From NCBI RefSeq assembly GCF_000378305.1, contig NZ_KB899538.1, forward strand, positions 1,458,001 to 1,522,000: DNA of 64,000 bases, written 5' to 3'. The position numbers and the translations under genes are program-made. Positions within the stretch are counted from its first letter, which is position 1, and every line of letters begins with the position of its first letter. This stretch comes from Thioalkalivibrio sp. ALJ12. GTDB taxonomy: Bacteria; Pseudomonadota; Gammaproteobacteria; Ectothiorhodospirales; Ectothiorhodospiraceae. Of the stretch, positions 1,539-17,899 are shown piece after piece. The notes under the pieces are model-generated. The model was not told the DNA's origin. It did not search any database and saw nothing but the letters and a program-made list of their open reading frames with translations.

Positions 1539-3842
1539 TCAGTCCTCGGCCTCGTCGTAATCGCCCTTGTGCTTCGGATTGGGGCGGGCCCGCTGGTCTT
1601 TCGAGTAGTCGCGACCGTCGTCGGTGTCTTCACCCTGCTCCTGGCTGAGACGCAGGTGCGCGGGCGGAGCGCTGCCGTCCTTTTCCTGACCGAAGTAGAT
1701 GGTCTGATGCGGGAACGGGATCTCGATACCGGCGGCGTCGAAGTGCTTCTTCACCAGGCGGTTGAACGCGCGGCCCAGGCCAAACTGCGTACCGGGCAGC
1801 GCCTTGATGCGGATGCGCACGTTGACCGAGCTGTCGGCCAGCGCAGTCACGCCGTGTACCTCCATCTCGTCGAGGATGTTCGGACCCTGGTCCGGATCTT
1901 CCTTGAGTTCCTCGAAGGCCTCTCGCAGGCGCACGATCACTTCGTCGATGTCCTCGCGATAGGCCACGCCGTACTCGCCCACGTGATAGCCATACTCGCG
2001 CATGTAGTTGGAGACGGCATCCACCGACGAGAACGGGATCAGGTGATAGGTGCCGGACAGGTCACGCAGGCCCATGGAACGGATCGTGAGCTTCTCGACC
2101 ACGCCGGTCATGCCGGCCACCGTGACCACGTCCCCGGTGTTGATGGCTTTCTCCAGCTGGATGAACACCCCGGTGATGATGTCCTGCACCAGCTTTTGTG
2201 CGCCGAAGCCAACCGCCAGGCCGAGCACGCCGGCGCCGGCCAGCAGCGGGCCGATATTCACGCCAATCTCGGCCAGCACGATCATGGCGGTCATCACGGC
2301 CAGCACGACGGCGACCGCATTGCGGAACAGGGTCAGCAGGGTCTTCTCGCGCGCCCCGGGCTCGCCCTCGCCGGTATTCGGGCTCAGGCGGTGTTCGATC
2401 CAGCTGGCGAACACGAGCCAGATGGCCAGGGCACCGATCAGGATCAGGGCGACCGAGATCGCAGTGCCGAGCACGTACATGCCCGTATCGGAGGCAATCC
2501 AGGCGCCGAGATTGAACGCGCCCCAGGCATCTGCGATCACTGCCAGCACGATGAGCAGGATCACCAGGCGCATCGTCTTCAGCGCCTTGGGGATGTACGA
2601 GTTCAGGCGTGCCTCGAGCATCGGGAACTTCATGCGAGTCTCGTCCGGAACCCGGATCTCGCGGCCGATGATCTGGCTGAGCACGTTGGCGACAAAGACC
2701 CCGATGAATGCGGCCAGTACCGTCTGTCCGGTGGCCTTGGCCATGAAGGGCAGGGCATCTTCCGGGCGGGTGATGCTGACGATTGCCAGGGTCAGGAAGT
2801 AGATCAGCGCGATCCAGTGCCAGGCGTTCGCCAGGAAGGTCAGCGTCATGCGCGTGAAGGCGAATCCGGCACGATTGGCGACCAGGATCAGGCGGTCATG
2901 CACGCGCTGGCGGTTCTGCAGGATGATGACCGCCGCGTAGAGGAAAGCGGTCAGCATGACCAGCAGCCCCAGCGAGCGCCCGGCCTCGCTGGAGAGATGA
3001 TTGTTGGCCAGCGGCACCAGCAGCAGCAGGCCGTAGCCGATGTACGTGACCAGGCGTGCCAGCCAGGCATTCCAGTAGGCGGCCTCGTCGCCGGCCATGG
3101 GCAGCAGCCGCAGGCCCCGGTAGCGCGTGGCGAAGATCAGGCGCAGGGCCGCCTTGGTGACCTCGATCAGCAGGAAGGCGTTGAGGAACAGCGAGTGCCG
3201 CGTCAGCATCTCTCCGGACTCCCCGAGCACAAAGAGCGCGAGGCCATAACCCCCGACCCAGGCCAGGATCACGATCAGGAAATCGATCAGCGCGGCCAGG
3301 AGTACGGCGGGGAGTGCGCGCAGCAGGTGGTACTGCTCCGGCGAATTGATCACCCAGCGGTCCAGCGCCGCAAACATCGGGCTGCCAAGACGCCGCAGGA
3401 TCAGGAAGGCGGCGATCGTCAGGACAATCAGGATCGCCAGGTCCAGCACCCCCGCGCCGAATACCACCGGGTCGATCGAGCTCAGCTTGTCGCCAATATC
3501 CACGGCGATCTCGTTCAGGGCCCGAATCTCCTGCACTGTGCCTTCGGCCAGCGATTGGGTGAACTGGGCGATCTGGCGCGGGATCGACGTGAGTTCGTCG
3601 GTGTCGACCGCCGCCTCATCGTCTGCCGTACTCTCGTCGTCCCCGGTACGTTCGGCCCGCAGTGTCTCGAGCAGGCGTTCGCGTGCCTCTTCGTTCTCCA
3701 GTGCCTCGATCAGCGCGTCATGCAGATCACCTCCATCGCCACCCTCCTGGGCCTGAACGGTCCCCAGGGGCATGAGCAGCAACAGCGAGAAGAGGGTGAG
3801 GAGGAGGAAGAAGGGGCGACGCAAAAAGCGGCTGGGGGACAC
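1539..3842 (-). CDS. Large MscS-family mechanosensitive channel
   Basis: A 767-residue protein from the GTG at 3842, which has a GAGG about 9 bases upstream and begins directly with a signal-like segment ending in VQA. A start further upstream (3953) would put about 37 arginine-rich residues before the signal and is less likely. A low-complexity acidic periplasmic region (EEARERLLETLRAER) is followed by about ten hydrophobic segments. The last is the glycine/alanine-rich MscS pore helix (GPLLAGAGVLGLAVGFGAQK), then the beta domain and an acidic, lysine-rich tail. It is expected in the inner membrane, releasing osmolytes under hypo-osmotic stress, which suits a halophile. Confidence 0.85.
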   Translation of the reverse strand: MSPSRFLRRPFFLLLTLFSLLLLMPLGTVQAQEGGDGGDLHDALIEALENEEARERLLETLRAERTGDDESTADDEAAVDTDELTSIPRQIAQFTQSLAEGTVQEIRALNEIAVDIGDKLSSIDPVVFGAGVLDLAILIVLTIAAFLILRRLGSPMFAALDRWVINSPEQYHLLRALPAVLLAALIDFLIVILAWVGGYGLALFVLGESGEMLTRHSLFLNAFLLIEVTKAALRLIFATRYRGLRLLPMAGDEAAYWNAWLARLVTYIGYGLLLLVPLANNHLSSEAGRSLGLLVMLTAFLYAAVIILQNRQRVHDRLILVANRAGFAFTRMTLTFLANAWHWIALIYFLTLAIVSITRPEDALPFMAKATGQTVLAAFIGVFVANVLSQIIGREIRVPDETRMKFPMLEARLNSYIPKALKTMRLVILLIVLAVIADAWGAFNLGAWIASDTGMYVLGTAISVALILIGALAIWLVFASWIEHRLSPNTGEGEPGAREKTLLTLFRNAVAVVLAVMTAMIVLAEIGVNIGPLLAGAGVLGLAVGFGAQKLVQDIITGVFIQLEKAINTGDVVTVAGMTGVVEKLTIRSMGLRDLSGTYHLIPFSSVDAVSNYMREYGYHVGEYGVAYREDIDEVIVRLREAFEELKEDPDQGPNILDEMEVHGVTALADSSVNVRIRIKALPGTQFGLGRAFNRLVKKHFDAAGIEIPFPHQTIYFGQEKDGSAPPAHLRLSQEQGEDTDDGRDYSKDQRARPNPKHKGDYDEAED

Positions 3843-7731: not shown

Positions 7732-8172
7732 ATGAATCCTTTTCTGGAAGCAGCCCTGGACGAGGCACGAACCGGCTGGGATGAAGGGGGTATCCCGATC
7801 GGTTCGGTCATCGAGCACGGCGGGCGCATCGTCGGCCGCGGACACAATCGGCGGGTGCAAAACGGCAGCGCCATCCTGCATGCCGAGATGGATGCCCTGG
7901 AGAACGCCGGACGCCAGGCGGCGAGCATCTACCGCGAGTGCACGCTCTACACGACGCTCTCGCCCTGTGCGATGTGCAGCGGGGCGATCGTGCTGTACGG
8001 CATCCCGCGTGTGGTGGTCGGGGAAAACGCCACCTTCATGGGAGAGGAGGACTGGCTGCGTTCGCACGGCGTGCAGGTCGATGTGTTGCAGGACGCCGCC
8101 TGCCAGGAGCTGATGGCCGCGTTTATCGAACGACACCCGGACCTCTGGCACGAGGATATCGGTTGCGAATAG
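7732..8172 (+). CDS. Zinc nucleobase deaminase, resembling yeast cytosine deaminase Fcy1
   Basis: A 146-residue protein with the cytidine-deaminase-fold motifs HAEMDAL (zinc His and catalytic Glu) and TTLSPCAMCSGAI (two zinc Cys). From memory, the flanking sequences EGGIPIGS, GRGHNRR, GSAILHAE, LYGIPRVVVGEN and the C-terminal W-x-EDIG closely parallel yeast Fcy1 rather than bacterial TadA, CodA or guanine deaminases. I infer it converts cytosine to uracil, or a related base. The start is the ATG at 7732, and there is no good Shine-Dalgarno. A complementation or substrate assay would decide function. Confidence 0.8.
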   Translation: MNPFLEAALDEARTGWDEGGIPIGSVIEHGGRIVGRGHNRRVQNGSAILHAEMDALENAGRQAASIYRECTLYTTLSPCAMCSGAIVLYGIPRVVVGENATFMGEEDWLRSHGVQVDVLQDAACQELMAAFIERHPDLWHEDIGCE

Positions 8173-8298
8173 GGCCGGTTTGACCGGAACACCCTTGCTG
8201 GCGGGCGGATCGTGCTTGCCGCACCGGACAAGACAGCGACATGGGGCGGGCGCCCGGGGAGCGCCTCATGGCGCCCTTCACGGAAAACACCAGTGTTC

Positions 8299-8314
8299 TG
8301 GCATGGTCGCTGCT
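8299..8314 (+). promoter_or_regulatory. Sigma54 (RpoN) promoter before the Ala/Gln-rich gene
   Basis: TGGCATGGTCGCTGCT has the invariant -24 GG and -12 GC exactly 10 bases apart. The -24 and -12 blocks (TGGCATG, CTGCT) are identical to those of the promoter I assign to flgA. Transcription would start near 8325, 25 bases before the ATG at 8350. Confidence 0.6.
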
Positions 8315-8349
8315 TGGGTGCCGGGTGCAACGAAAACCGGGAGCACCTC

Positions 8350-8850
8350 ATGATCGACGGCATCGGAATGAATCAGGCGGCGCTGGCGCGGCCGGTCCAT
8401 TCGGCGCAAAGCCCGAACAACGCCGGGCAGGCTGGCCACCGACCGGCGCAGGCCGGGCAGGCCGGGCAGGCTGGGCAGGCGGCGCACGCACAGCCGGCAC
8501 AGCAGGCCCAGGCCGCCACGCAAGCGCAGGCGAACGGTCAGGTCAATGGACAGGGCGCGGCCGTCTCGACTTCCCCACATGTGGCCCAGCCGGCGTCCAC
8601 CACACAGGCCCCGTCGGCACACGAGGCGGCATTCGCGCCCCAGGGCCTTAATGCGACGCCGCCGACGCAGGCCACCGCGATGCCGCTGGCCGGCGGCCAG
8701 GTCAACGGGGCCCCGCAGGCCGACGATGCCCCCCAGATGGACGCCGATCCGGACGACGAAGCGGACATGGGCCAGACCTTCATGCCCGACGGCTCGGTGC
8801 AGTCCAACTCCAACGAGCACCTCGGATCGCACTTTGACCTGCAGGCGTGA
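8350..8850 (+). CDS. Low-complexity Ala/Gln/Pro-rich protein with acidic tail
   Basis: A 166-residue protein with no recognisable domain. After a short N-terminus (MIDGIGMNQAAL) it is dominated by Ala, Gln, Gly and Pro, including AGQ tandem units near residues 35-44. The C-terminus is acidic (DDAPQMDADPDDEADMGQTF) and ends in a region with SNSNEHLGSHFDLQA. There is no signal peptide. The composition suggests an intrinsically disordered protein. Position and promoter tie it to the sigma54 regulon, which in this window otherwise drives flagellar genes. The reading frame is supported by start context and codon use, not by homology. Confidence 0.6.
   Translation: MIDGIGMNQAALARPVHSAQSPNNAGQAGHRPAQAGQAGQAGQAAHAQPAQQAQAATQAQANGQVNGQGAAVSTSPHVAQPASTTQAPSAHEAAFAPQGLNATPPTQATAMPLAGGQVNGAPQADDAPQMDADPDDEADMGQTFMPDGSVQSNSNEHLGSHFDLQA
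8452..8478 (+). repeat. In-frame 9-bp tandem repeat (AGQ units)
   Basis: Three consecutive 9-base units (GCCGGGCAG twice, then GCTGGGCAG) encode Ala-Gly-Gln. Related copies lie just upstream. The unit length is a multiple of three, so slippage would change repeat number without a frameshift. Confidence 0.75.
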
Positions 8851-10900: not shown

Positions 10901-11836
10901 TCAGTGCGCGCGAGTCAGGCGCGAGAACAGGCGCCGGATACGCCCGGGGCCGTACCCGTGGACGCGCTTGAAGGCCTTGCGAAAGGCCGGCTCCGAGCCA
11001 TAGCCGACCTGTTCCATCACGCTGGCCACCGATGCCCTCGGATCGCGCAGCAGCCGTTCGGCCAGGACCATGCGCCACTGGGTCAGGTAGTCGATGGGGG
11101 CCTGCCCGACCAGCTCGCTGAAACGCGCGGCGAAACTCGTTCGCGACATCGCGGCCTCCTGCGCCAAGCCCTCGACCGTCCAGTTCTCCTCGGGCCGTGC
11201 GTGCAGCGCATCGAGGGCACGGCGGATACGGTCGTCCGCGAGGGCCGCGATCAGACACTGTTCTGGATGCTCCTGGTAATGGCAGACGTAGTGGCGCACC
11301 GTCATTACGAACAGGGTATCCGCCAGACGATCGAGTACCGGCCGATAGCCGGCGGACTGCTCTGACAGTTCCAGGCGCATCAGATCGGCCAGCCGCGCCA
11401 GCCGCTCGCCGCTCTCGGCGTGGCGCACGATCACGCGGTCGGGCAGGGCCGCCAGGATCGGATTCCGGCGCCCGGAATCGAATTCGAAGTGACCGCATAA
11501 CAGCTGTGTCGAGCCGGGTTCGGGGTCGGACGGGTCCAGCAGATTCAGGTGATTGTCCCGGTCCTCGAATGAAGGCTCGCTCGCCAGCAGGTGCCAGTCG
11601 TCGTGGGGCAGGAGCAGCATGTCGCCCGCATCCAGCCACAGTGGCTCGCAGTCCTCCATGTGCAGGTAACAGCCCCCTTCGCTGATCAGGTGAAAGCTCG
11701 CATGCCCGGAACCGGTGGTGCTGAGCTGCCACTGGCCGCACAGACGGGGGTTGGTGTCGATCCGTGCGCGCAGGTTGTAGGCCGAGAGGACGGACGACAG
11801 CGTGTCCTCGCGCGGCATGATCCGGCTCATGTCCAT
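10901..11836 (-). CDS. AraC-family regulator with N-terminal cupin domain
   Basis: A 311-residue protein. The start at 11836 was chosen because AGGAG lies 10 bases upstream. An ATG 45 bases further out (11881) lacks a ribosome site. The N-terminal half reads as a Cupin_6-type sensor (ISEGGCYLHM, LDAGDMLLLPHDDWHLL). The C-terminus has two helix-turn-helix units (EGLAQEAAMSRTSFAARF and the AraC signature VMEQVGYGSEPAFRKAFKR). It is divergent from hvfX across 167 bases and convergent with the CMD gene, so it is a candidate regulator of the hvf genes, though proximity is the only evidence. Confidence 0.88.
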   Translation of the reverse strand: MDMSRIMPREDTLSSVLSAYNLRARIDTNPRLCGQWQLSTTGSGHASFHLISEGGCYLHMEDCEPLWLDAGDMLLLPHDDWHLLASEPSFEDRDNHLNLLDPSDPEPGSTQLLCGHFEFDSGRRNPILAALPDRVIVRHAESGERLARLADLMRLELSEQSAGYRPVLDRLADTLFVMTVRHYVCHYQEHPEQCLIAALADDRIRRALDALHARPEENWTVEGLAQEAAMSRTSFAARFSELVGQAPIDYLTQWRMVLAERLLRDPRASVASVMEQVGYGSEPAFRKAFKRVHGYGPGRIRRLFSRLTRAH

Positions 11837-11910
11837 GAGGGGTTCGCTCCTGTCGAGGAAACGCTGATCAATGTACGGCATCGCAGGCGTCTTGGCTCCG
11901 CCCCGGACGA

Positions 11911-11952
11911 TCGGACATAAATGCCGGCGCGACGGTTCTCACGATTGTCCGA
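11911..11952. promoter_or_regulatory. Inverted repeat between araC-type gene and hvfX
   Basis: TCGGACA (11911-11917) and TGTCCGA (11946-11952) are perfect 7-base inverted copies with centres 35 bases apart, in the divergent promoter region. This spacing would place both half-sites on roughly the same helix face. It is a candidate operator, not a demonstrated one. Confidence 0.35.
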
Positions 11953-12003: not shown

Positions 12004-12627
12004 ATGAACGCTATGGCGTTGCGGGCGGGCATCCGATTCCAGCGGTGGCTGGACATGACGCGCGGAGCGGATTTTCTGGCGCCGCTGCTGATTCGCCTGT
12101 ATCTCGCGCCGGTGTTCTGGATGGCCGGCACCAACAAGCTCGACGGCTTCCTGCCGAAAGAAAGCGTGGTGATGTGGTTTGGCAACCCGGACTGGGGGCT
12201 GGGGATGCCGTTTCCGTACCTGATGGTGCTGCTGGCCGCCTATGCCGAGGTCCTGGGTGCGATCGCCCTGCTGCTGGGTATTGCCGCGCGCTGGTTCTCC
12301 ATTCCCCTGATGGTCACGATGATCGTCGCGGCGGTCACGGCCCATCTGGAGAACGGATGGCAGCGCATCTCCGACCCGATGATGTGCCTGTTCAACTGCT
12401 CGGGAGTGGAAGCGGCCCAGGAACGGCTGAGCCGCGCGCGTTCCATCCTGCGGGAGCACGGCAACTGGGACTGGCTGACCGAGTACGGGAGCTTCGCGAT
12501 CGTGAACAGCGGAATCGAGATGGCCGCGACGTACTTCATCATGCTGCTGATGATCTTCTTCTGGGGCGCCGGCCGCTACCTGAGCATCGATTTCTACATC
12601 CGCAGGAGGATGATGGACAGGGGATAG
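12004..12627 (+). CDS. DoxX-family membrane protein of Hvf-type RiPP locus (HvfX-like)
   Basis: A 207-residue protein with about four membrane segments (for example LLIRLYLAPVFWMAGTNKL, MVLLAAYAEVLGAIALLLG, MVTMIVAAVTAHL and FIMLLMIFFWGAGRYL). These fit the DoxX family, with the characteristic N-terminal RLYLAPVF...KL element. A long loop between TM3 and TM4 carries two Cys (MMCLFNCSG). It is the first gene of the locus and is followed by the Cys-repeat precursor, DUF692 oxidase and DUF2063 genes, the partner set of the Haemophilus hvf system, where the DoxX protein is the fourth component of unknown role. Confidence 0.82.
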   Translation: MNAMALRAGIRFQRWLDMTRGADFLAPLLIRLYLAPVFWMAGTNKLDGFLPKESVVMWFGNPDWGLGMPFPYLMVLLAAYAEVLGAIALLLGIAARWFSIPLMVTMIVAAVTAHLENGWQRISDPMMCLFNCSGVEAAQERLSRARSILREHGNWDWLTEYGSFAIVNSGIEMAATYFIMLLMIFFWGAGRYLSIDFYIRRRMMDRG

Positions 12628-12657
12628 CCAGGAGGATGGAGGACAGGGGATCGCCAA
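12604..12657 (+). repeat. Imperfect tandem duplication at hvfX stop codon
   Basis: Two adjacent copies of about 26 bases (near 12604-12629 and 12630-12656) share AGGAGGATG, GACAGGGGAT and CGCCA/AGCCA blocks. The first copy contains the hvfX stop; the second lies in the intergenic region. Each copy contains an AGGAGG. Confidence 0.75.
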
Positions 12658-12704
12658 TGGAGCTGTGCAAAACAGCAACCATTGGCAAGGCGGGCATTTT
12701 GCCC
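12653..12704 (+). promoter_or_regulatory. Structured leader between hvfX and hvfA: two hairpins
   Basis: Hairpin 1 pairs GCCAATGG (12653-12660) with CCATTGGC (12679-12686). It continues inward as GCTGT/ACAGC around a GCAAA loop, giving a 13-pair stem with a small bulge. Hairpin 2 pairs GGGC (12692-12695) with GCCC (12701-12704). No T-run follows, so this is not a classical terminator. It may process or stabilise the mRNA so that the precursor is made in excess of HvfX, or respond to a signal. Confidence 0.5.
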
Positions 12705-12733
12705 CTAACGTTAAGCGACGAAGGAGTTGCATC

Positions 12734-13030
12734 ATGAAACAAGAACTGTTCTCGAAAAAGACCCTGGCCGGCGTGGTGGGTACCGCCGCGATCGGCCTGG
12801 CCATGGGTTCCAGCCCGGCCTTCGCCGCGGTGGATCTGAACCACGGGTATCAGCAGGGATCTTCAGCCCCTCACATGCTGGCCCAGGGTTCCTGTGGTGA
12901 AGGCACCTGCGGTGGCGCCGATAGCGAGCCCAAGGACTCCGAAGGTTCCTGTGGCGAGGGTAGCTGTGGCGCCAACGGGGAAGAAAAGGACTCGGAAGGT
13001 TCCTGTGGCGAGGGGACCTGTGGCGGCTGA
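12734..13030 (+). CDS. HvfA-like RiPP precursor with EG[ST]CG repeats
   Basis: A 98-residue precursor with a strong Shine-Dalgarno (AAGGAG, 12721-12726). Residues 1-31 are a signal peptide ending in AFA. The core from residue 51 has six G[ST]CG units with Cys at 54, 59, 73, 78, 91 and 96, in three pairs five residues apart, separated by acidic Lys/Asp/Glu/Ser spacers. Five units carry a preceding Glu, giving EG[ST]CG. In the Haemophilus HvfA family the equivalent EGKCG Cys are converted by the DUF692 enzyme to copper-binding oxazolone-thioamide groups. By analogy this should be a secreted, modified copper-binding peptide. The Lys to Ser/Thr change is the oddity. Confidence 0.85.
12887..13027 (+). 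repeat. Coding repeat: three paired G[ST]CG modules in hvfA
   Basis: Three modules of about ten residues (G-S-C-G-E-G-[ST]-C-G-[GA]) are spaced by 8-13 residues. The DNA of modules 2 and 3 is nearly identical (GAAGGTTCCTGTGGCGAGGG). Module 1 differs at synonymous sites. This indicates a recent duplication of the second pair. Confidence 0.8.
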
Positions 13031-13904
13031 AGCCATCCAGCCCGTACGCCCGGCCCGCGTACGCGGTGCCGGGCTCGGCCTGCGGCGGGCACTACTGGAG
13101 CCGCTGGCCGCGGCACCCGAGTCGCTGGAGCGGCTCGGGTTTTTCGAGGCTGCGCCGGAGAACTGGATGCACCTTGGCGGGCGCCTGGGCCGTACTTTCC
13201 GCGAATATACCGAGGCCCACCCGTTCGTCTGTCACGGGCTTTCCCTGGACATCGGCGGGCCACGACCCCTGGACATGGACTTTCTGGCCGATCTGCGCCG
13301 GTTCCTCGATACGCATGACATCGAGGACTACACCGAACACCTCTCGGCCTGCGGGGACGAAAAGGGTCACCTCTACGACCTGATGCCGATCCCGTTTACC
13401 GAAGAAGCCGTGCGGCATGTGGCCCGTCGCGTGCTCCAGGTACAGGAGACGATCGGCCGGCGCATGGCACTGGAGAATGTTTCCTACTACACCCCGGTCG
13501 GGGCCCGGATGAGCGAGCTGGAGTTCCTCCGGGCGGTGCTGGACGAAGCCGACTGCGAGCTGTTGCTGGATGTGAACAACATCTACGTGAACAGCATCAA
13601 CCACGGCTATGACCCGGTCGAGTTCCTCGATGGTCTGCCGCTGGAGCGCGTGCGCTACATCCACATCGCCGGCCACGAGGAAGAAGCGCCGGATCTGCGC
13701 GTGGACACACATGGCCAGCCGGTCTGCGGGGACGTATGGGATCTGCTGGAGGCGACCTACGAACGGATCGGCCCGGTGCCGACCTTGCTGGAGCGGGACT
13801 TCAACTTCCCGGCGCTGGAGGTCTTGCTGGAGGAAACGGACCGCATCCGCGCACTTCAGGTCACCGCGGCCGGGAAGCGCGCATCCCTGCAGGCCCATGG
13901 CTGA
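13020..13904 (+). CDS. hvfB: DUF692/MNIO multinuclear iron oxidase, HvfB-like
   Basis: A 294-residue TIM-barrel enzyme from the GTG at 13020, overlapping the last codons of hvfA by 11 bases. AGGGG at 13011-13015, inside the final repeat, is the only ribosome site. Family landmarks are GAGLGLRR (16-23), PENWM (46-50), [11 protein letters not shown] (71-81), [38 protein letters not shown] and [10 protein letters not shown], which carry the His, Glu, Asp and Asn ligands of the iron cluster. DUF692 enzymes oxidise precursor Cys. Here they would install oxazolone-thioamide groups in the HvfA-like peptide, in the cytoplasm before export. Confidence 0.9.
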
Positions 13905-14658
13905 ACCCGATTTTCAGGAGTTGCAGCAGGTCCTCGCCCGGCACCTGCGCGACCCGGAGCGCCACCCGCCCCCGGAGGGTATCGAGGACCGCCGGCTGGC
14001 GATCTACCGGCGCCTGTTTATCAATAACATTCGTAATCTGCTCGGGCGCGGGTTCCCGGTCATCCGGCGGATCTTCGGGGAGGAGGCGTGGGCAGCGCTG
14101 GTGCGCGATTTCTATCGCGACCATGGCTGTCATACGCCGTATTTCCCGCGGCTGGCGGAGGAATTCGTCCAGTACCTGGCCGAGGAGCGGAGGCTGCTTC
14201 CGGGCGACTGGCCGTTTCTGGCCGAGCTGGCGCACTACGAACGGGTCGAGACGGAGCTCGTCTACAGCGATGCGCAGCCCTCGGGCGACGTGGATCCGCA
14301 GGGCGATCTGCTGACGGGGGTCCCGGTGTTTTCGTCCGCCGCGCGACTGCTGGCTTACGAGTTCCCGGTGCATCGGATTGGGCCGGACCACTGCCCCCAG
14401 CAGCCGGGTGATGTGCCCACCTACCTGTTGGCCTATCGTGGCGAGGACGAGCGCGTACGCTTTGCCGAGCTGAACCCGCTGGGAGCACGGCTGTTGTGGC
14501 GGGTCTGCGAGGAGCCGGCAGCGGGTGACCAGCAGCTTCGCCGGGTAGCGGAGGATTTTGGCCTCGAGCCCGGTCCCGAGTTATTGGAGAGCGGGCGGCA
14601 ACTGCTGGAACACTATCGGGGCCTGGGGGCGATCGCAGGTGCGCGACCGCTTGATTAG
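13897..14658 (+). CDS. hvfC: DUF2063 partner protein, HvfC-like
   Basis: A 253-residue protein whose ATG at 13897 overlaps the hvfB stop by 8 bases, indicating coupled translation. The N-terminal half ([59 protein letters not shown]) matches the DUF2063 or putative DNA-binding domain found in HvfC/BufC. The C-terminal half is a second domain that ends with a winged-helix-like [20 protein letters not shown]. In characterised systems this protein binds the precursor and the DUF692 enzyme and is needed for modification. Despite the old domain name, a role as a transcription factor is not supported here. Confidence 0.88.
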
Positions 14659-16906: not shown

Positions 16907-17899
16907 ATGGATAGGCAATTGAAAGGGCGCTGGACCGTATGGCCAGTGCTAGCCGTTGTGCTGATGGGCCTGGCCCTGTTGGCCCAGGCCGAGGAAGAGA
17001 AAGAAGAGCCGCGCGATCGCCCCATCGAGAAGGTACTGGAGCCGATCCAGCTGACGGATCGCGTCTGGTACTTCTACGGTTCGCTGGAGAACCGCACGCC
17101 GGAGAATCTCGGCTTCACCAATAACACGGGCTTCGTCGTCACTGACGACGGCGTCGTGCTGATCGATTCGGGGCCGAGCTACAAGGTCGCCGAACGCATG
17201 GCCAGGGCGATCGCCGAGGTCACGGATCAGCCGATCACGCATGTGATCTCGGTGGGTTCGCAGGATCACCGCTGGCTGGGCAACAGCTACTTCCACGAGC
17301 AGGGTGCGGAACTGGTCGCCCTGCAGCGCACTGCGTCCACGCAGGCCGAACGCGGCGAGGGGCAGATCGAGTCCCTGGCGAATACCGTGGGAGAAGAGGC
17401 CATGGAAGGGACCGAGCCAGTCCCGGCCCCGAATCCGATTGACGCGGACGAACACACCCTGACGGTCGGCGGGGTGGACTTCGAACTGATCTATGCCGGG
17501 GACGCCCACTTCCCGGGCGATATCATGGTCCACCTGCCGGGCGAGGATGTCGTGTTCACCGGCGACATCGTCTACACCGAACGCATGTTGGGCATCCATC
17601 CCTGGAGTAACCCGGTGGAGAAGCTGGAGGCCTTCCGGCACCTGGAGTCCATCGATCCCGAGATCGTTGTACCGGGTCATGGCCGCGCGACGGACATGGC
17701 CGAGGCGCGCCAGGACACGGGTGACTACCTGGAACTGCTGGTGCGCGAGGTCGGAGCAGGTATCGAGGACTGGGAGTCCCTGGACGAGGTGGTGGAACGC
17801 CTGTCCGATCTCGAAGAGTTCAAGCACCTGCGCCACTACGACGACTGGCATCGACCCAACGTGAACCGGACCTATCTGTTCATCGAAGAGAACATGTAA
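16907..17899 (+). CDS. Exported MBL-fold protein with degenerate zinc motif
   Basis: A 330-residue protein with an N-terminal signal segment ([17 protein letters not shown]) and then a metallo-beta-lactamase fold: [42 protein letters not shown] and [10 protein letters not shown]. The classical HxHxDH zinc motif is replaced by VGSQDH in [17 protein letters not shown]. Both first-site His are lost while Asp-His and the later His/Asp ligands remain. It is closest in layout to the SoxH or quinoprotein-relay hydrolases, but it is either a one-metal enzyme or not a hydrolase. It is a single gene before thrS. Confidence 0.82.

Follow-up and report, generated by a model that had tools for sequence, protein, structure and literature searches.

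A probable captophorin operon in Thioalkalivibrio sp. ALJ12 with serine and threonine at the lysine position of the precursor motif

The stretch of Thioalkalivibrio sp. ALJ12 DNA analysed here (the window: 64,000 nucleotides of contig NZ_KB899538.1, assembly GCF_000378305.1) carries at positions 12004-14658 a unit of four genes that appears to be an operon of the captophorin (HvfXABC) type. The residue before each motif cysteine of its precursor peptide, where lysine is usual, is serine or threonine. We consider it probable (about 0.83) that the product has the same 5-thiooxazole chemistry as its published relatives, and that the position before the cysteine is one that the enzyme tolerates and that has changed in this lineage. 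The Lys-to-Ser/Thr change seems to mark a lineage-specific form of a captophorin system already described.

The operon and its precursor peptide

The four genes run in the same direction on the forward strand. The first (12004-12627) encodes a DoxX membrane protein of the HvfX family (NF050144, 220 bits against a cut-off of 80; PF07681) and the second (12734-13030) the precursor, a peptide of 98 amino acids with a Sec-type signal peptide, as judged by eye. They are followed by an HvfB-type multinuclear non-haem iron oxidase (MNIO, DUF692; 13020-13904; NF003818, 413 bits against 360; PF05114; PDB 3bww, E 1.2e-75) and an HvfC-type partner with DUF2063 and NGO1945_C domains (13897-14658; NF050145, 275 bits against 142; PF09836 and PF22106; PDB 3dee, E 4.5e-9). 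The precursor and MNIO genes overlap by 11 bases and the MNIO and partner genes by 8, where the GTG at 13020 was chosen by us as the MNIO start; the longest frame opens at 12894. The next gene, a PRK11768 homologue (447 bits), is convergent on the operon, and the unit is therefore taken as four genes long; there is no further enzyme gene within it. The order DoxX-MNIO-partner is kept in all 13 Thioalkalivibrio stretches, with the precursor found by tblastn in 12 and, in the remaining one (L110), by motif on the same contig. Family models match all four proteins, the precursor having an NCBIfam match and no Pfam match. The NCBIfam HvfX, HvfB and HvfC matches confirm the original prediction of an Hvf-type locus for a copper-binding ribosomally synthesised and post-translationally modified peptide, composed of DoxX, a 98-residue exported peptide with six cysteines, DUF692 and DUF2063 proteins. 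The host genome (2.78 Mb) contains one MNIO match, and the nearest named relatives of the enzyme are those of Thioalkalivibrio sp. ALJ3 (96%) and AKL19 (80%), records very close to the genome itself possibly being excluded.

The residues preceding the six precursor cysteines are S, T, S, S, S and T, so that the Ser/Thr substitution first noticed in this peptide holds for every unit. Five of the units read EG[ST]CG and the first reads QGSCG, giving three pairs of [EQ]G[ST]CG units with the cysteines of a pair five residues apart. The paired pattern occurs at three places in the genome, all of them at this locus, and a reversed-pattern control gives zero; no tandem repeats are reported at the DNA level. 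The close pairing, which had been regarded as distinctive, proves to be the norm of the family: HvfA has three AEGKCGEGKCG motifs (PMC13419390), and the roughly 2,000 Buf_EGKCG/oxazolin proteins described by Antoine et al. have 17-residue repeats with two EGKCG motifs each (PMC12452194). Its presence in HvfA was the ground for rejecting the pairing as a novelty. Nor is the pairing strict, since the precursors of L003 (whose enzyme is identical to that of L096) and L095 have five motif cysteines, not six.

The repeat domain model NF050137 (KCGExKCG_twice) accepts the precursor at 44 bits against 19.5, and the peptide is for that reason filed as a variant of the Buf_EGKCG/oxazolin type, which in its strict form has the lysine-containing EGKCG motif (0/6 Lys here). 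The surroundings are those of a captophorin locus, with an HvfB-type MNIO whose metal site is intact, an adjoining PME1 partner (DUF2063 plus an RRE-type domain), a Cys-rich signal-peptide precursor encoded ahead of the MNIO and, as in HvfX systems, a DoxX protein above the model cut-off. As the matching models are NCBI's own, NCBI annotation will probably call the peptide HvfA-family, with the outdated oxazolone/thioamide wording.

That wording reflects the product formerly assigned to HvfBC, an oxazolone-thioamide, which the original prediction also assumed. Two groups have reassigned it: Gadgil et al. assigned a 5-thiooxazole to fontiphorin, gonophorin and oxazolin and named the class captophorins (PMC13097082), and Manley et al. 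arrived at a 5-thiooxazole for oxazolin (PMC13419390). The older structure was set aside here on these revised assignments. Both structures lose 4 Da, so the loss alone, once proposed as the mark of an oxazolone-thioamide, cannot separate them.

The closest counterpart is the oxazolin system HvfA/B/C/X of nontypeable Haemophilus influenzae, which has the same four gene families, an exported precursor, three motif pairs with cysteines five apart, an HvfB-type MNIO and an HvfC-type partner. The locus described here differs from it in having Ser/Thr for Lys before all six cysteines and in a divergent AraC gene (see below). Fontiphorin (FonABC, Fontimonas thermophila) and other captophorins likewise combine an MNIO and PME1 with 5-mer Cys repeats, whereas the natural FonA motif has Lys, and the main text of PMC13097082 holds neither GSCG nor GTCG and no natural S/T-type precursor that we found there. 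Bulbicupramide (mmr, Microbulbifer) shares the MNIO, the DUF2063 partner, EGKCG cassettes, thiooxazoles and copper binding, but its motif is of the Lys type (PMC12538549). The CxxxxC precursor family of Antoine et al. resembles the locus in its signal peptide and its MNIO, DUF2063 and DoxX genes, and the pair spacing seen here (CGEGxC) also reads CxxxxC; 54% of its clusters contain a Lactamase_B_2 gene, however, and none is seen here (PMC12452194). Bufferins (Buf1/Buf2) and methanobactins, with published MNIO-modified cysteines and copper binding, have precursors of other families, and the MNIO scores below the cut-offs of both the BufB (265 bits against 310) and the MbnB (47 against 325) models.

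The genes, the motif, its residues and their distribution are observed directly; the chemistry and copper binding are carried over from these published relatives. If the precursor is expressed, the DUF2063/RRE partner would bind it at the leader, and the multi-iron MNIO would oxidise the six cysteines with the loss of four hydrogens from each. Every cysteine would become a 5-thiooxazole, built from it and the carbonyl of the preceding Ser or Thr. The product would be exported by Sec and bind Cu(I) in the periplasm, where the peptide may act as a copper or stress buffer. Replacing Lys by Ser or Thr would alter the charge, and perhaps the surroundings of the copper, and leave the reaction the same.

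Conservation of the enzyme and distribution of the motif residues

The MNIO was compared across the best 80 of 582 relatives' loci together with 30 loci of the same genome, genus and family, 110 in all. Eight were dropped for identity below 50%, and the alignment comprises 102 rows with at least 50% identity and at least 255 amino acids. A precursor, sought within 1.5 kb upstream, was found for 87 rows and not for the other 15. The sampling favours relatives of this MNIO, and some strains appear twice: the enzymes of L002 and L098 are identical, as are those of L003 and L096.

Residues H72, H107, E152, D184, N187, H219, D229, H231, E258 and D260 are identical in all 102 rows. These ten were matched by motif to the metal ligands and base of MbnB (PMC8888699) and the site-3 ligands of HvfB (PMC13419390); position 216, tried as an eleventh ligand, varies between I, V, M and L and was rejected as misplaced. 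R22, R23 and F261, corresponding to the motif-reading residues R15, R16 and F250 of FonB, are present in all 14 Thioalkalivibrio S-type rows and all seven other S-type rows (for the types, see below). R23 and F261 are invariant also in the 51 K-type and 15 mixed rows, and R22 is replaced by Lys in one K-type and two mixed rows. When the third place was changed in both repeats of the substrate, FonBC tolerated Ala, Arg and Thr (3-A, 3-R, 3-T), was severely impaired by Phe and Glu, and did not accept Pro (PMC13097082). The precursor described here therefore uses residues of which one, Thr, is accepted by a related enzyme.

An enzyme adaptation common to the separate S-type origins is not supported. 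Each of the 21 S-type rows has Leu at columns 25 and 26 and Gly at 146, but this candidate was rejected because the residues recur in 24, 22 and 13 of the 51 K-type rows. Six columns (40, 93, 146, 211, 253 and 263) are common to the Thioalkalivibrio and Wenzhouxiangella clades and occur in fewer than 30% of K-type rows. Position 263, two past the motif-reading Phe, is Phe in 13/14 and 5/5 rows of these clades, yet L014 and L045 have Ile there and 7/51 K-type rows also have Phe, so there is no firm covariation.

Precursors were labelled K-type with at least 80% Lys before the cysteines, S-type with at least 70% Ser, Thr or Ala, and otherwise mixed; the 87 rows with a precursor divide into 51, 21 and 15. 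The S-type rows are 14 of Thioalkalivibrio, five of Wenzhouxiangellaceae or Lysobacterales, Pseudomaricurvus L014 and the metagenome-assembled genome (MAG) L045. A separate Thioalkalivibrio clade of the mixed type (L102, L104, L105 and L107) has Ser with Arg and Lys, two of the four also having Thr. An MNIO tree built by a quick method places the S label in four separate positions. Four changes are needed to explain them, a minimum that the well-supported branches also impose, and the tree does not distinguish gains from losses. Lys and Ser occur together in one precursor beside a single MNIO gene in L014, L045, L063 and L013, and the residues seen before the cysteines across precursors include K, R, S, T, A, N, Q and G.

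Searches with the paired pattern gave a similar picture. Within the order 22 of 47 genomes match, 17 of them in the genus itself; 13 of these 17 have no Lys or Arg in the pairs listed, and G013, G014, G015 and G027 do. EG[ST]CG, proposed for an alignment of relatives, appears as a lineage variant. The class sample has 91 matching genomes among 369; among the matches listed (51 of the 91, first places only), none of the 50 genomes other than ALJ12 has Ser/Thr at both pair places. In the phylum sample (35 matches in 398, places listed for all 35) ALJ12 alone has such a pair among the places listed. Four genomes with S-type loci outside Thioalkalivibrio (L007, L011, L018 and L033) all have Ser/Thr pairs. 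From these counts, Ser/Thr at both pair places is uncommon in the samples and typical of the genus Thioalkalivibrio. We found no description of the Ser/Thr variant in the main papers among the literature matches listed.

The sister genus (g4) has kept [KR]/R pairs. In L190, a member of this genus, the [KR]/R-type precursor gene (3205-3558 of its own stretch) lies about 4.4 kb before the MNIO gene (7936-8781), with DoxX-type, SulP-type transporter and UspA-type genes, assigned by eye, between them. Another, G042, has both S/T-type and [KR]/R-type precursors, on contigs C197 and C462; with 600 contigs and 5% contamination, it is likely to be a mixed assembly.

The two places of a pair are not equivalent in Thioalkalivibrio. 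Parsing of 15 distinct precursors gave 48 pairs, in which the first place holds S 29 times, A 15, K three times and N once, and the second T 35 times, R eight, S two, K two and A once; Thr never occupies the first place. Wenzhouxiangella precursors lack this asymmetry and are mostly S-S. Because the Thioalkalivibrio loci share ancestry, the asymmetry represents one or few evolutionary events.

Leader, gene overlap and candidate regulation

A short element, AVDLNHGY (12827-12850, forward strand), stands 3' of the signal peptide region of the precursor. Of the 16 distinct Thioalkalivibrio leaders, 15 have its pattern, [LMIVP]xxG[YF] after the signal peptide, as do 56 of the 66 others; shuffled leaders have it in 5.4% of cases. 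The count excludes repeated leaders and those of fewer than 25 residues. The element may be the recognition site of the partner protein. No single leader residue seems to be essential, given that FonBC accepts single Ala variants of FonA ahead of the core (PMC13097082).

At 13010-13030 (forward strand) the last precursor repeat also contains the GTG with which the MNIO gene starts, preceded by a ribosome-binding-like stretch. Twelve of the 18 Thioalkalivibrio loci, or 10 of 16 when each distinct enzyme is counted once, spell the repeat GAGGG[GA]AC[CT]TGTGGC, so that GAGGGG or GAGGGA precedes the GTG; the same six bases begin only 2/96 other matched repeats. The remaining six loci (L109, L110 and all four mixed-clade loci) lack this spelling. 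The arrangement suggests translational coupling of precursor and MNIO, and the overlap may constrain the codon of the last Thr.

Upstream, on the reverse strand, lies a divergent gene for an AraC-family regulator with Cupin_6 and HTH_18 domains (10901-11881; Pfam), and between it and the DoxX gene a conserved 26-bp element (11903-11928, forward strand) that is a candidate operator. Among 96 relative loci there are 13 in which a divergent AraC gene precedes DoxX. The element is present with at most five mismatches in 11 of these 13 (two of the 11 being second strain copies), and at up to six mismatches in none of the remaining 85 loci, among them L004 and L012, which do have a divergent AraC gene; at up to three mismatches it is a single site in its own genome. 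Conservation must partly reflect common descent, the loci being related. The AraC protein is likely to be the regulator of the operon, perhaps acting through this element, and its resemblance to RclR, below the model cut-off (122 bits against 400), hints at a stress signal. No sigma-70 promoter was found, and terminator-like sites number four, against 2.0 in shuffles. The mixed-clade loci L186-L188 have no divergent AraC gene and carry an inverted repeat, CCTACG-N8-CGTAGG, upstream of DoxX.

Outside the unit, a gene of the metallo-beta-lactamase fold (16907-17899; Lactamase_B, PF00753) is near SoxH-related models but under their cut-offs. Eight of the nine AraC-type stretches from the genus (L177-L183 and L185) have it in the same position, 3.5-5.3 kb past the MNIO start.

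Explanations for the change of residue

Several points weigh against a captophorin operon with unchanged chemistry. The precursor falls short of the full HvfA model (NF050188, 47 bits against 95), as does the K-type relative L004 (61 bits); the S-type precursors L007, L018, L033 and L002 likewise pass the repeat model and fail the HvfA equivalog. Ser is absent from the third-place FonBC variants noted in PMC13097082, and neither its main text nor that of PMC12452194 contains the string GSCG or GTCG or the name Thioalkalivibrio. Among the literature matches listed there is no experiment on a Ser/Thr-type precursor. The FonB residues were mapped by motif, without the FonB sequence. Finally, the Thioalkalivibrio enzymes have changes of their own (Y110A in 13/14, Y189V in 10/14, Y/F220E in 13/14 and A233Q in 12/14) that could alter selectivity.

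A different modification, which the original prediction had considered, seems to us very unlikely. In this alternative the Ser/Thr hydroxyl would take part, for example through dehydration beside the thiooxazole or direct ligation of the metal, and the near-confinement of Thr to the second pair place suggests some role, as might the uniformity of columns 25, 26 and 146 in the S-type enzymes. The same columns are shared by many K-type enzymes, however, the four-gene unit has no extra enzyme gene, and close relatives have Ala and Arg at the same places, so the hydroxyl is not required. The enzyme retains the catalytic and motif-reading residues tested, and FonBC processes Thr, Ala and Arg substrates (PMC13097082), which argues against both another modification and a reacting side chain, the latter with the reservation on Ser given above. 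Still less probable is an unmodified product, whether from a decayed cluster or as a plain cysteine peptide that binds metal. The relatives one Cys unit short (L003, L095 and L096) would fit decay, but the gene order and the precursor are retained in all 13 Thioalkalivibrio stretches, the listed MNIO matches have no internal stops, and the active site is invariant.

If the chemistry is the same, the replacement of Lys still calls for an explanation. Neutral drift, to which we give slightly less than even odds, would require that the place before the cysteine is loosely read and that a high guanine-plus-cytosine (GC) content, poor in AAR codons, let Ser, Thr, Ala, Arg or Asn replace Lys harmlessly. 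The variety of residues at this place and the tolerance of FonB (PMC13097082) are consistent with drift, as is the Asn of L002/L098, which a single base change in its codon separates from Lys, Ser or Thr. The Lys fraction of the precursors falls with GC (rho -0.54, n=87; without Thioalkalivibrio -0.25, n=69, p 0.04) and rises with the share of Lys in the MNIO itself (rho 0.56, n=87). GC was nevertheless rejected as the whole cause, as 7 of 36 loci at GC of at least 0.62 are all-Lys. In the 51 K-type precursors Lys fills 409/416 motif places against 511/1845 linker residues, so that it is normally held there, and the [SA]-then-[TRK] order of the 48 pairs is unlike free drift, though the loci share ancestry. 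An adaptive origin is possible but rather unlikely: lysine amines near the copper site might be harmful or useless in haloalkaliphiles, with about pH 10 outside, and give way to Ser, Thr, Ala or Arg. Thioalkalivibrio comes from soda lakes of pH 9.5-11 (PMC5345834), and the second S-type clade, Wenzhouxiangellaceae, includes one strain that is a soda-lake haloalkaliphile (PMC7691419). Lys is scarcer at the motif place (5/100) than in the linkers (32/330) of the 15 distinct Thioalkalivibrio precursors, mixed clade included; the other S-type rows have 8/65 and 48/223. Mean core charge per residue is -0.155 in 18 Thioalkalivibrio loci and +0.024 in 51 K-type loci, with overlapping ranges. Against adaptation, Pseudomaricurvus L014 and the MAG L045 are S-type without known alkaliphily, and the sister genus retains [KR]/R pairs, one of its MNIOs being identical to that of the MAG Thioalkalivibrio sp. 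CSSed162cmA_318, which we take to be from a soda-lake sample. The relation of Lys to GC makes composition a confounder here, and alkaline habitat is a possible cause of the change.

A more elaborate proposal starts from the order within pairs. EG[SA]CG-EG[T/R/K]CG would be a two-site metal unit evolved from the Lys form for alkaline brine, in which a small first residue and a bulkier second one would determine which cysteine is processed first and how a single Cu(I) sits between two thiooxazoles, copper being bound in ordered pairs. We regard this as improbable; stochastic copper binding has been suggested for EGKCG peptides (PMC13097082).

For a captophorin operon with a tolerated and changed residue, the low probability of a different modification would spare effort spent in that direction. 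The K-only, S/T-only and mixed precursors, with their related enzymes, would allow a direct comparison of substrate reading and copper binding, and offer natural test cases for the role of the residue before the modified cysteine in a very large class of MNIO copper peptides.

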